Shown piece after piece: positions 2,640 to 25,638 of a DNA stretch of 64,000 bases. The first letter of the stretch is position 1. Each line of letters opens with the position of its first letter. The stretch covers positions 1 to 64,000 of the forward strand of contig JAKOPZ010000123.1 of the NCBI GenBank assembly GCA_029778615.1. The letters are read 5' to 3'. Made by a program: the position numbers and the translations under genes. The notes beneath the pieces were generated by a model, which ran no database searches, was not told where the DNA came from, and saw only the letters and a program-made list of their open reading frames with translations. Origin of the DNA: Chloroflexota bacterium (lineage in GTDB: Bacteria; Chloroflexota; Anaerolineae; UBA4142; SHND01).

Positions 2640-3869
2640 TTATTGCGCGCAGCGGAAACCGATGCGGTCCGATGAATAATCGGGCGATTGCGGCTCGCGG
2701 TCAGAATTGCGGCGTGGTTCATCTGCCCACGAACCGCCGCGCACAACTTTGGTCCCCGTTGATTCACTCGGTCCGTACAAATCATTTCCATCGCTGTACG
2801 CGTTTGGGTCGTACCATGTGTTGGTCCATTCCGCGACATTGCCCGCCATGTCAATAACACCGAAACCACTGCTGCTGTCATATTCCGCAAAGCGTCCGAC
2901 CGGCGCAGTGTCGGCAAAGCCATCGTTCACATCACCCCAATAATTCGGCAGCGGACAGCTCGCTTCGCAAAATGAAATCGGTGAGCCGTGAAAAATCGCG
3001 TTCCATTCAAAGTGCATGCCGATGCTGTTGCTCCATGTGTAACGCCAATTTTCTTCGCCCTTTGCCGCGCGTTCCCATTCGCCTTCATGCGGCAAACGCC
3101 GTCCAATCCATTTGCAGTACGCGTCCGCGCCGTACCAGGTCACATTGACGACGGGATAATTTGAAAATTCCGGATTCCCGAAATAAGCATCGCGCGTGTA
3201 CGAACCCGTCTTTGTCGGCGCGGGACAAACCTTTGCGGCGACGCACGCCTGATACTGCGCGTTCGTTACTTCGTACGTGTCAATGCGATATTCGTACACC
3301 GTAACATCGTGAAACGGTTTTTCGTCGGGGTCATCTTCGGGCGCTTTGCCGCCCATGCGCAGAGTACCTTCGGGAATCAAGATTAGTTCTGTCGGCGCAA
3401 ACGACGCGGGCGGGGGAAGGTTTGAATTGTCTTGTGCCGGCGCAGTGGGCGCGTCGGTCGGCGCGAGAGGTGGCTGCGCTGTCGGCGCGTCCGTTGGCGC
3501 GAGGATTGGTTCTTTTGTCGCGGTTTCGGGAGTTGCTGTTGGCGGAATTTCTGTCGGTGGAAGCGCGGTGAAGGTTGGCGGCACGCGCGTTGGCGGGACC
3601 TGTGTCGGCGCAATCGTCGGCGCAGATGTTGGCGTTGGAAATAATGTTGCGGTCGGTTCGGATGTGTTGGTTGCAACAGGGGCGGCAGTCGGAATTTGTG
3701 TGGCGGTTGCGGGTAAATTCGTTGCCACGACGACGACGATGCGTGTGGTGGGCGATGGTGGCGGTAAGGGCGTCGGCGTTTCGCCCGCGCACGCAACGAT
3801 GCTCAACAAAAAGAGAAAAACGAAAAGCGAACCGAGGGCGTTCGCTTTTGATTCATAGATTTTGCTCAT
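2640..3869 (-). CDS. Lipoprotein with C-terminal formylglycine-generating-enzyme-like (SUMF1) domain
   Basis: The 409-residue product begins MSKIYESK, has a hydrophobic signal segment and a lipobox ending SIVAC, so it should be exported and lipid-anchored. Residues of about 30-150 are a Thr/Pro/Ala-rich tether (PTP, PTA, APT words). The last 250 residues are a SUMF1/FGE-type sulfatase-modifying fold: ILIPEGTLRMGG, NVTWYGADAYCKWIG, RRLPHEGEWERAAKG, GNVAEWTN, RGGSW and GFRCA. The cysteine pair used by true FGE enzymes near RGGSW is not evident, so a binding or structural role is as likely as catalysis. The chosen ATG (3869) is 6 nt from a TACAAT box. It lies just downstream of the DUF350-like cassette on the same strand; membership of that operon is possible, but it has its own promoter. 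Confidence 0.88.
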   Translation of the reverse strand: MSKIYESKANALGSLFVFLFLLSIVACAGETPTPLPPPSPTTRIVVVVATNLPATATQIPTAAPVATNTSEPTATLFPTPTSAPTIAPTQVPPTRVPPTFTALPPTEIPPTATPETATKEPILAPTDAPTAQPPLAPTDAPTAPAQDNSNLPPPASFAPTELILIPEGTLRMGGKAPEDDPDEKPFHDVTVYEYRIDTYEVTNAQYQACVAAKVCPAPTKTGSYTRDAYFGNPEFSNYPVVNVTWYGADAYCKWIGRRLPHEGEWERAAKGEENWRYTWSNSIGMHFEWNAIFHGSPISFCEASCPLPNYWGDVNDGFADTAPVGRFAEYDSSSGFGVIDMAGNVAEWTNTWYDPNAYSDGNDLYGPSESTGTKVVRGGSWADEPRRNSDREPQSPDYSSDRIGFRCAQ

Positions 3870-23082: not shown

Positions 23083-23111
23083 TTGACACGAGCGCGCGGG
23101 CATGGTAGGAT
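23083..23111 (+). promoter_or_regulatory. Promoter TTGACA-17-TAGGAT of the T-box operon
   Basis: A consensus -35 TTGACA (23083-23088) is 17 bp from TAGGAT (23106-23111). Transcription would start near 23118, just ahead of T-box stem I. Confidence 0.75.
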
Positions 23112-23312
23112 TTCCAACACTTGAGTAAGCGTTGCCGAATCAAGTAGCCGCGCGAATTTCTAGCGAGTTGCAGAAAGGTGGAACTGCGACAGTTGGCGCA
23201 AGCGAAAATCCAATTCGGCAGTGATGACACGATGTTCGGGTCATCACAACGCAACTGCGACGAGCAGTTTCGGTTCGCTCCCGTTATCGAGCCATTGAGG
23301 TTGTGACTCGAT

Positions 23313-23386
23313 TGTCATTTCGAGCGCAGTGAGAAATCTCATTACTGGACAAGCAAGATTTCTCGCAACGGCGGCTCGAAATGACA
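23313..23386. repeat. REP-like palindrome inside the T-box leader
   Basis: TGTCATTTCGAGC and GCTCGAAATGACA form the outer stem; GAGAAATCT and AGATTTCTC form an inner one. This matches in style a palindrome family (TGTCATTTCGAGCG... type) widely scattered in unrelated bacteria. It lies between the T-box stem III region and the antiterminator. Confidence 0.85.
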
Positions 23387-23424
23387 ACGCATGGCACAAC
23401 AAACAAAGGTGGCACCGCGAGCGA

Positions 23425-23455
23425 CGCTCGCCCTTTCGAGGGCGGGCGTTTTTGT
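23425..23455 (+). terminator. T-box terminator
   Basis: CGCTCGCCC and GGGCGGGCG form a 9-bp stem (one G-U) around a TTTCGA loop, followed by TTTTT. It directly follows the T-box sequence and competes with the antiterminator. Confidence 0.88.
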
Positions 23456-23485: not shown

Positions 23486-24016
23486 ATGTTACCCGATTAT
23501 CTTGCGCCAGATTTGGAAATCGTCTTTATTGGTCTGAACCCCGGCACATATTCTGACAAAATGGGACACTATTTTGCGCGCTCGACCAATTTGTTTTGGA
23601 CAGCATTGTACGAATCGAAATTGGTCAATGAAAAACTCACACCCCAAGACGACGTTCGCATGAACGAATTTGGGTTCGGACTCACCGACCTTGTCGCGCG
23701 TCCCACGCCGAACATTGACGGGCTCGCGCGCGATGAATTTGTCGCGGGCGGGAAAGTTTTGCGCGCGAAAATTTTAAGGTTTGCGCCGCGCATCGCGTGT
23801 TTTGTCGGCATCACCGGCTTTCGCCACGCGTTTAATCCGCGCGCAGAATTTGGCTCGCAATCCTCCCCCGTGTGGGGGAATACAAAAATTTTCATCGTTC
23901 CGTCCACCAGTCCGCGCAACGCCTATTATCGTCCGCACGTGATTGATTGGTTCAAGAAACTCAAACTCTTGAGCGATGCACTGCGCGATGAAAAATCTGC
24001 AATCTGCAATCTGTAA
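23486..24016 (+). CDS. mug: Mismatch-specific uracil/thymine-DNA glycosylase (Mug family)
   Basis: The 176-residue enzyme has the Mug/TDG motifs FIGLNPGTYS near residue 14 and VPSTSPRNAYYR near 140. These form the base-flipping pocket that removes U or T mispaired with G. The active-site Asn of the GLNPG motif is present. The start ATG has no clear Shine-Dalgarno but follows a small GACGAAT/ATTCGTC hairpin. The last residues (EKSAICNL) and the stop codon are supplied by a 7-bp repeat array at 23994-24041. It lies between the serine T-box and serS, so its expression should follow tRNA-Ser charging, which is odd for a repair gene. Confidence 0.93.
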   Translation: MLPDYLAPDLEIVFIGLNPGTYSDKMGHYFARSTNLFWTALYESKLVNEKLTPQDDVRMNEFGFGLTDLVARPTPNIDGLARDEFVAGGKVLRAKILRFAPRIACFVGITGFRHAFNPRAEFGSQSSPVWGNTKIFIVPSTSPRNAYYRPHVIDWFKKLKLLSDALRDEKSAICNL

Positions 24017-24053: not shown

Positions 24054-25319
24054 ATGAACGACATTCGACTCATCCGCGAAAAACCCGAAGTGATGCGCGA
24101 GGCACTGGCGAAACGCCAAATGGATACCGCGCCCGTTGACCGCATCCTCGCGCTGGATGAAGAACGCCGCGCGAAACTTTCGGAACTGGAAGCGTTGCGC
24201 GCGCAACGCAACAGCGCGTCCAAAGAAATCGGACGCATGAAAGAGCAAGCGCAACGCGAAACTATGAAAGACCAGGTGCGCGTTATCAATATCCAGATTG
24301 ACGCGCTCGACACGCTCGTCGGTGAACTCGACGCGCAATTGCAAGAAGCAATGTACGAACTGCCAAACATCCCCGACGCCGATGTCCCAATTGGCAAAGA
24401 CGACAGTGAAAATGTGGTCATCAAAACGGTTGGCACGCTGCGCGAATTCGCGTTCACACCGCTGCCGCATTACGAACTTGGCACAAAACTCGGCTATCTC
24501 GATTTCGAGCGCGGCGTAAAACTCGCCGGCACACGTTTTTACGTGACGAGCGGACCGCTCGCCAAATTGCAGCGCGGGTTGATTCAATGGCTGCTCGACC
24601 ATCACATCGCGCGCGGCTATCGCGAATTTGGTTTGCCGTTCATGACCAAAGAAGAAATCATGCTCGGCGCGGGGCAACTGCCAAAATTCCGCGAAAATTT
24701 ATATCACGATGTCGAACGCGACGCGTGGTTCGTACCGACGGCGGAAATCCCGCTCACCGGTTTGCACATGAACGACATCTTGAATGGCGACGACCTCCCA
24801 CTGAACTACACCGCGTATACGCCGTGCTTTCGTAAAGAAAATCTCGCGGCAGGCAAAGACACGCGCGGCATCAAACGCGGCTTTCAATTCGACAAAGTGG
24901 AAATGTACAAATACTGCAAACCCGAAGATTCGGAACAGGAATTGCAAAACATGGTCGCGGACATTGAAGACATTCTCGTGCAGTTGCAAATTCCATATCG
25001 CGTCAAAGAACTTTGCACCGGCGACCTCGGCGCGAATTCGACCAAAACGTATGACCTCGAAGTGTGGGCGCCGGGCATTGGCGAATGGCTCGAAGTGTCG
25101 AGTGCGTCCAATGTGCGCGATTTTCAAGCCCGCCGCAGCAATATTCGTTTTCGTCGCGCGCCCGGTGCCAAACCCGAATTCGTTCACACGCTCAACGGTT
25201 CGGGTCTCGGCGTCCCGCGCACCATGATTGCGATTCTGGAAAATTACCAGCAAGAAGATGATTGGATTGAGGTGCCGCAAGTGTTGCGCGAGTATGTAAG
25301 GTTGGACGCCATCAAGTAG
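24054..25319 (+). CDS. serS: Seryl-tRNA synthetase
   Basis: The 421-residue class II synthetase begins MNDIRLIREKPEVMREALAK at 24054 behind CCGGAGGC. An N-terminal antiparallel coiled coil of about 100 residues binds the tRNA-Ser long arm. The catalytic core shows GTRFYV, PTAEIPLTGLHMNDIL, motif 2 with FRKENLAAGKDTRGIKRGFQF and motif 3 GLGVPRTMIAILENYQ. It charges tRNA-Ser with serine. It is the expected target of the upstream serine T-box. The stop codon is immediately followed by a tandem repeat block. Confidence 0.97.
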   Translation: MNDIRLIREKPEVMREALAKRQMDTAPVDRILALDEERRAKLSELEALRAQRNSASKEIGRMKEQAQRETMKDQVRVINIQIDALDTLVGELDAQLQEAMYELPNIPDADVPIGKDDSENVVIKTVGTLREFAFTPLPHYELGTKLGYLDFERGVKLAGTRFYVTSGPLAKLQRGLIQWLLDHHIARGYREFGLPFMTKEEIMLGAGQLPKFRENLYHDVERDAWFVPTAEIPLTGLHMNDILNGDDLPLNYTAYTPCFRKENLAAGKDTRGIKRGFQFDKVEMYKYCKPEDSEQELQNMVADIEDILVQLQIPYRVKELCTGDLGANSTKTYDLEVWAPGIGEWLEVSSASNVRDFQARRSNIRFRRAPGAKPEFVHTLNGSGLGVPRTMIAILENYQQEDDWIEVPQVLREYVRLDAIK

Positions 25320-25638
25320 GGAACGTTCGCCGCAACGTTCCATCGCCGCAACGTTCCATCACCGCAACGTTCCATCACCGCAACGTTCCGTGCAACATCA
25401 ACCGTAGGGAACGTTCGCCGCAACGTTCCATCGCCGCAACGTTCCATCACCGCAACGTTCCATCACCGCAACGTTCCGTGCAACATCAACCGTAGGGAAC
25501 GTTCGCCGCAACGATCCATCGCCGCAACGATCCATCGCCGCAACGATCCATCGCCGCAACGATCCATCGCCGCAACGATCCATCGCCGCAACGATCCATC
25601 GCCGCAACGTTCCGTCACCGCAACGTTCCGTGAAACGT
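25317..25638. repeat. 16-bp tandem repeat block after serS
   Basis: About twenty contiguous copies of a 16-bp unit (CGCCGCAACGTTCCAT, later CGCCGCAACGATCCAT) fill the region. A higher-order unit of about 88 bp beginning GTAGGGAACGTTC is present twice and starts a third time before the block turns uniform. Most copies carry the palindrome AACGTT. Apparent reading frames across it are repeat artefacts. It contains no gene. Confidence 0.93.

Follow-up and report, generated by a model that had tools for sequence, protein, structure and literature searches.

The window, that is, the whole stretch of 64,000 nucleotides that was analyzed, contains at 23118-23455 a leader that precedes a mug-like uracil-DNA glycosylase family gene and serS, the seryl-tRNA synthetase gene, as shown in Table 1. 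An earlier note on this DNA had read in this leader a serine T-box of a likely Chloroflexota gene, and this was borne out, the genome belonging to Chloroflexota (Anaerolineae): the promoter, the pairing that closes stem I, the TCC specifier with serS downstream, the bulge that matches the GCCA end of tRNA-Ser and the terminator just ahead of mug-serS are all present. Its description of the T-box as complete stood for the promoter, specifier, bulge and terminator, but a K-turn is not recognisable at the base of stem I and a repeat lies inside stem III. The mug-like gene sits between the T-box and serS, with the T-box core 646 nt before serS; the same gap measures 649-732 nt in the genus-mate leaders L040-L042, but only 151 nt in L043 and 87 nt in L044. 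Directly after serS, a tandem array of short units around CCGCAACGTTCCATC was seen by eye (25320-25620).

Table 1. Features of the serS leader and of the genes that follow it; positions are those of the window.
Feature	Position	Strand	Description	Basis
Promoter	23083..23111	+	TTGACA 23083-23088, 17 nt, TAGGAT 23106-23111	sequence; same spacing in 6/6 genus leaders
Three-way junction at stem I base	23129..23252	+	outer helix 23129-23132/23249-23252; inner helix 23133-23140/23213-23220; side hairpin 23221-23247	single-sequence fold; RNAalifold, 6 genus leaders; pair counts
Stem I	23133..23220	+	closed by TGCCGAAT 23133-23140 with ATTCGGCA 23213-23220; AGTA 23143-23146; AG bulge 23162-23166; distal loop GGTGGAA 23177-23183	Rfam alignment
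Specifier	23209..23211	+	UCC (serine), fits tRNA-Ser(GGA)	invariant in 6 genus leaders; tRNA-Ser genes
Extra hairpin X, in the place of a K-turn	23221..23247	+		perfect 8-bp base
Stem II	23253..23269	+	short	RNAalifold
Stem IIA/B pseudoknot	23271..23292	+	CGG/CCG (by reading); GCUC 23277-23280 with GAGC 23289-23292	RNAalifold: IIB helix
Stem III	23300..23400	+	GTTGTG 23300-23305 with CACAAC 23395-23400; enlarged by insert	fold -43.5 kcal/mol
Palindromic repeat	23312..23387	.	76 bp, 14-bp perfect inverted ends, MITE-like	inverted ends; genome copies
Antiterminator	23405..23436	+	A1 AAAGG/CCUUU, A2 GCGAG/CUCGC; order AAAGG-UGGCACC-GCGAG-CGACG-CUCGC-CCUUU; T-box bulge UGGCACC 23410-23416, with TGGC 23410-23413 within AAAGGTGGCACCGCG	sequence
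Intrinsic terminator	23425..23453	+	hairpin 23425-23448, then T5; exclusive with antiterminator	-18.5 kcal/mol hairpin then T5
mug-like uracil-DNA glycosylase family gene	23486..24016	+		PF03167, E 4.9e-21
serS, seryl-tRNA synthetase	24054..25319	+		PF02403 + PF00587

In the Rfam covariance search the whole length of the T-box model RF00230 aligned to 23123-23438, scoring 48.8 bits (E 1.3e-9; 2.5e-9 against the whole genome of 6.0 Mb). Since this score is below the gathering score of 93, the default Rfam scan of the window came back empty, and to read that scan as a refutation would be wrong in view of the full-length match below the threshold; the Rfam thresholds are described as too stringent for T-boxes in the text consulted of PMC12452182. 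The fold of the leader is far below that of shuffled sequence (z -5.27, with 0 of 100 shuffles reaching it). The genome has seven clear T-boxes, one of which is above the gathering score, while five of the six besides that of the window are below it; these six precede genes for aspartokinase, pheS, a valS-like protein, an AlaX-like protein, an alpha/beta-hydrolase-like ORF and trpE, as named by eye from the downstream ORFs. An eighth RF00230 match in the genome (12.7 bits, E 5.17) was taken as chance, as was a minus-strand match to the atpB RNA (15.1 bits, E 0.76) that overlaps the inserted palindrome. By eye, the T-box L005 (G000 contig C311, 896-1213, minus strand) has a probable CUC (Leu) specifier and a UGGU bulge, with the alpha/beta-hydrolase-like ORF as its unusual target, and L004 (G000 contig C180, 5443-5786, plus strand), with a specifier that is perhaps AUC and a UGGU bulge, precedes the AlaX-like editing protein, specifier and target having no obvious match.

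Relatives of the serS product at 84-95% identity were from metagenome-assembled Chloroflexi and Anaerolineae genomes. A T-box precedes serS in all 16 loci fetched from the genus and the order, comprising 5/5 genus-mates and 11/11 order-mates (the latter from 14 other genomes of the order, with G013, G014 and G015 having fragments), and in 8 of the 13 loci fetched from 40 genomes of other orders of the class. T-boxes of Chloroflexota have been in print since 2008, according to the parts consulted of PMC2494555 and PMC3766115, so that the phylum is by itself not news.

All six genus leaders share the 17-nt promoter spacing, with the -10 box being TATCAT in L042, and the conservation of UCC is cited from their alignment (n = 6) and not from the script placement, in which the triplet was UCC in 91 of 97 serS leaders by a script that favored triplets starting with UC. 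The window has one extra A before the specifier compared with the five other genus leaders, and the specifier loop is non-standard in L043 and L044. The genome carries four tRNA-Ser genes, of which tRNA-Ser(GGA) fits UCC and ends, by reading, in G73-CCA, matching the UGGC bulge; over the 97 serS leaders the bulge is UGGC in 89 and UGGU in six, with two unread. The IIB helix GCUC/GAGC is replaced by GCCC/GGGC in L042, and no S-turn was seen by eye in stem II of the window leader.

Transcriptional T-boxes usually have the terminator as the default, with the antiterminator forming once an uncharged tRNA has bound at the specifier as well as at the bulge. The antiterminator and terminator of the window share bases and are mutually exclusive. 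The antiterminator structure is computed at -7.8 kcal/mol, while the same stretch alone folds otherwise at -10.4 kcal/mol, and therefore the antiterminator would need the tRNA to form. The stem I specifier UCC would pair with the anticodon of uncharged tRNA-Ser(GGA), and the UGGC of the bulge with the GCCA end of that tRNA; a tRNA so bound would hold the antiterminator and let RNA polymerase pass, whereas charged tRNA would leave the terminator to form.

In the standard T-box K-turn, at the base of stem I, the 5′ strand carries GA together with a short bulge, and the 3′ strand carries GA as well. The window leader has a three-way junction at this place: the outer helix GCGU/ACGC joins the inner helix directly on the 5′ strand, and hairpin X stands between them on the 3′ strand. 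The junction is present in the minimum-energy fold of the window leader. Single-sequence pair probabilities are 0.93-1.0 in the outer helix and the hairpin and 0.87-1.0 along the inner helix, except at its junction pair (0.52), and RNAalifold on the six genus leaders gave the junction unprompted. Over the 19 named pairs of the junction, 93.6% of the cells are paired in the six leaders, falling to 28-47% when the columns are slid by one to three; eight pairs changed on both sides, which 4 of 500 shuffles equalled, and the covariation score was reached by none of 500. The covariation within the genus comes mostly from hairpin X (both sides changed in six of eight pairs; 87.0% of its cells paired) because three of the four outer and five of the seven inner pairs never vary, and the six genomes behind it are probably all metagenome assemblies. 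The junction would take over the job of the K-turn, which is to fold the leader so that its 3′ half returns to the tRNA. We regard it as highly probable that the leader at 23118-23455 is a transcription-attenuating serine T-box for mug-serS, in which a three-way junction, with its added hairpin, has taken the place of the stem I K-turn.

One and the same test, of whether the stem I base admits a K-turn, was applied to all groups of 97 distinct serS leaders, which were obtained from 74 serS loci (45 with a usable T-box core, minus six duplicates, leaving 39) and from 90 more loci (58). The K-turn was placeable in 10 of 11 order-mate leaders of family f2 and in five of seven leaders of other class members, while it was placeable in only one of the six leaders of the window genus, one of 14 from the named genomes (L117-L150) and two of the 59 serS leaders from the order of genome G046, referred to below as the second clade. 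None of the placings in these poor groups (L044, L134, L182 and L220) is at the stem I base. The test yields false negatives, as K-turns it missed were seen by eye in L057, L123, L124, L002 and L003. For about 14 of the second clade's 59 leaders, in which the first classifier placed stem I badly or not at all, the placement test is the sole source for the absence of a K-turn. The totals of that classifier (17 with a K-turn, 78 without and two unplaced of 97) were dropped, stem I being misplaced in, for example, L040, L041, L134, L160 and L181. Two leaders from elsewhere, L047 and L065, have a partly degenerate K-turn with CAG for GAG. As a control set, 72 T-box matches in ten genomes of the G046 order were considered, from which 30 loci were fetched and 28 kept after removal of one serS leader and one unreadable core, their targets being named by eye; the K-turn was placeable in 25 of these 28. 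A loss from all T-boxes of these genomes is therefore rejected, and within the limits of the test the loss concerns the serS leaders. In the window's genome, the K-turn was placeable in three of the six T-boxes besides that of serS; L002 and L003 show one by eye, and L006 has no clear stem I.

The serS leaders of the second clade lack the K-turn and mostly have a junction of their own with a covarying outer helix. Their 5′ strand runs GAC, about four bases and the inner helix GCGGAG, and their 3′ strand runs inner helix, one base, hairpin X, no or one base and GUC. Alignment A2 holds the 25 of 32 leaders that passed the script filters; seven leaders of family f29 (L060, L157, L161, L166, L169, L191 and L209), which by eye have no X, were left out of it, though the script flagged some hairpin in L060, L161, L169 and L209. 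The outer helix is 95.8% paired over the 25 leaders, with three of three pairs changed on both sides (variants GC/AU/GU, AU/CG/GC and CG/UA/UG), and hairpin X has 81.9% of its cells paired. At the junction end of the inner helix, the position of the non-Watson-Crick pairs of a K-turn, the pair is GC in 16 leaders, AU in seven, GU in one and unpaired in one. The structure as a whole is 92.4% paired versus 77.7% in shuffled alignments (reached by none of 500), and 32-50% when slid. X and the outer helix were both named by hand, as RNAalifold on the gappy alignment of the second clade called neither.

An outer helix of 3 bp might arise by chance, which is opposed by these covariation counts and by a permutation test independent of A2. 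At least three outer pairs were found in 30 of 37 leaders versus a mean of 20.4 (one of 2000 permutations as high), and with fixed spacing in 15 of 26 leaders without GAC versus a mean of 6.5 (none of 5000); 50 leaders had been picked for this test by script score, the 37 being those with a script-called hairpin, of which some calls are doubtful. Most readable f29 leaders (L157, L166, L191, L060 and others) have no X by eye, and several of them retain an outer helix that resembles GAC/GUC, together with an internal loop. Hairpin X is thus not indispensable.

A quick tree of 62 SerRS proteins was examined for the presence or absence of the K-turn, and the two states need two changes on it; seven of the 62 rows have no state, the second-clade rows not set aside were all scored as having no K-turn, and L047, L057, L065, L123 and L124 were scored by eye as having a K-turn. 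The proteins of the six genus leaders form one starred branch that groups with f2 (99, starred), which keeps the K-turn, and the second clade falls in another part of the tree (moderate support, 91). The tree is most simply read as two separate replacements, assuming that the leaders descend with the gene. We lean toward the view, as probable, that the K-turn of the serS T-box was exchanged independently in two Anaerolineae lineages for two differently built three-way junctions that do its work, with no other T-box affected within the sample. If this is true, T-box sensing would not require K-turn geometry, not even where a stem II region is present, and some feature of the serine leader, or of the long variable arm that tRNA-Ser has, would favor such a replacement.

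The T-box itself is genuine and ordinary in kind, while the variant at the base of its stem I looks new. The leader resembles RF00230 in its promoter, stem I with specifier loop, AG bulge, distal loop, IIA/B pseudoknot, stem III, antiterminator and terminator, and differs from it in the dispersed repeat that stem III carries. It shares the serine specifier with the serine T-boxes of Firmicutes, in which serS is a common target, and differs from the Paenibacillus serA T-box, where a kink-turn is found at the bottom of stem I in the place of which the window has a three-way junction (both from the consulted text of PMC8002221). The accessible text of PMC7583486 describes the K-turn in 'nearly all' T-boxes, hence as common and not defining, and says that whether any T-box functions without one would be interesting to see; it cites Grundy 1997 for the S. 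aureus ileS T-box, likewise proposed to have no K-turn, and mentions no three-way junction for it. When an extended stem I helix took the place of the K-turn in B. subtilis glyQS, the second step of tRNA binding became strongly unfavorable, as given in the part consulted of PMC6197855; the inner helix of the window is extended too, but a junction is added. A search by titles and starts of abstracts, with the subscription literature mostly outside it, found no paper on a K-turn-less T-box with a three-way junction. The serS leaders provide a natural test of whether T-boxes can work without the K-turn bend, and with their K-turn-bearing relatives as controls the junction leaders make the question directly testable.

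The junction might instead be a k-junction, meaning a K-turn (tandem G.A pairs beside a 3-nt bulge) with a third helix on the non-bulged strand, so that the K-turn would be hidden and not lost. Such k-junctions are known from the TPP riboswitch, and together with the pk-turn of RNase P they are precedents for a K-turn replaced by another element in related species (both from the consulted text of PMC4316175 and PMC5061560); they belong to other RNA families, and no G.A pairs were seen in the serS leaders with a junction. Hairpin X does lie on the 3′ (non-bulged) strand, as in these k-junctions, and the second clade keeps a 5′ linker of about four nt where the bulge would be. This reading is nonetheless unlikely: no tandem G.A step was seen next to the inner helix (though a non-standard K-turn without G.A pairs is possible), the junction-end pair of the second clade covaries as Watson-Crick, and the window and most genus leaders have no 5′ linker. 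It is also improbable that the T-box is an ordinary one with a decayed K-turn, the extra hairpin being a neutral spacer. The degenerate K-turns of L047 and L065 reveal that decay occurs, and X is missing from most readable f29 leaders, but the junction helices covary and the other T-boxes of the second-order genomes keep the K-turn in 25 of 28 cases.

The inserted repeat raises the further alternative of a dying leader, in which the T-box has been disabled and serS is now constitutive or off. The repeat, of 76 bp, would have entered the stem III loop and left both the stem and the antiterminator unbroken; too short for a transposase, it is found at no fewer than 40 other places of the genome (a hand count from a table of 78 matches on both strands), with both ends recognisable by a strict pattern in 11 of the 26 copies checked and no target-site duplications seen by eye. 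The insertion, the extra base in the specifier loop and the low Rfam score would each suit a disabled leader. Set against them, the base of stem III, T-box, antiterminator, terminator and promoter are all intact, the sister species (L040) has the same insert at the same place with an intact T-box, and the insert occupies a hairpin tip, this hairpin being one that differs freely in sequence among the genus leaders, so a dying leader is very improbable. Nor does the insert account for the low score, since similarly low or lower scores are seen in leaders that lack it (L043 56.7 bits, L044 33.8), low scores being general in the genus with or without it (33.8-72.3 bits in the five mates, four of which have no insert); L041-L044 have hairpins there without the repeat, by reading.

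We favor the junction-bearing serine T-box over these alternatives, and the repeat is taken as tolerated because the base of stem III and all the 3′ parts are intact and because insertions of unknown function occur in every T-box domain, as the accessible text of PMC7583486 has it. In the window leader a dispersed repeat thus makes up part of the stem of a riboswitch, and T-box hairpins may often be tolerant of palindromic repeats. Two order-mates were seen by eye to have palindromic inserts as well: L053 (reverse complement, ~3412-3778) harbors a similar one, TGTCATTCTGAG...AGAATGACA, in the stem II region, and L052 (1137-1468) has one in the distal loop of stem I.
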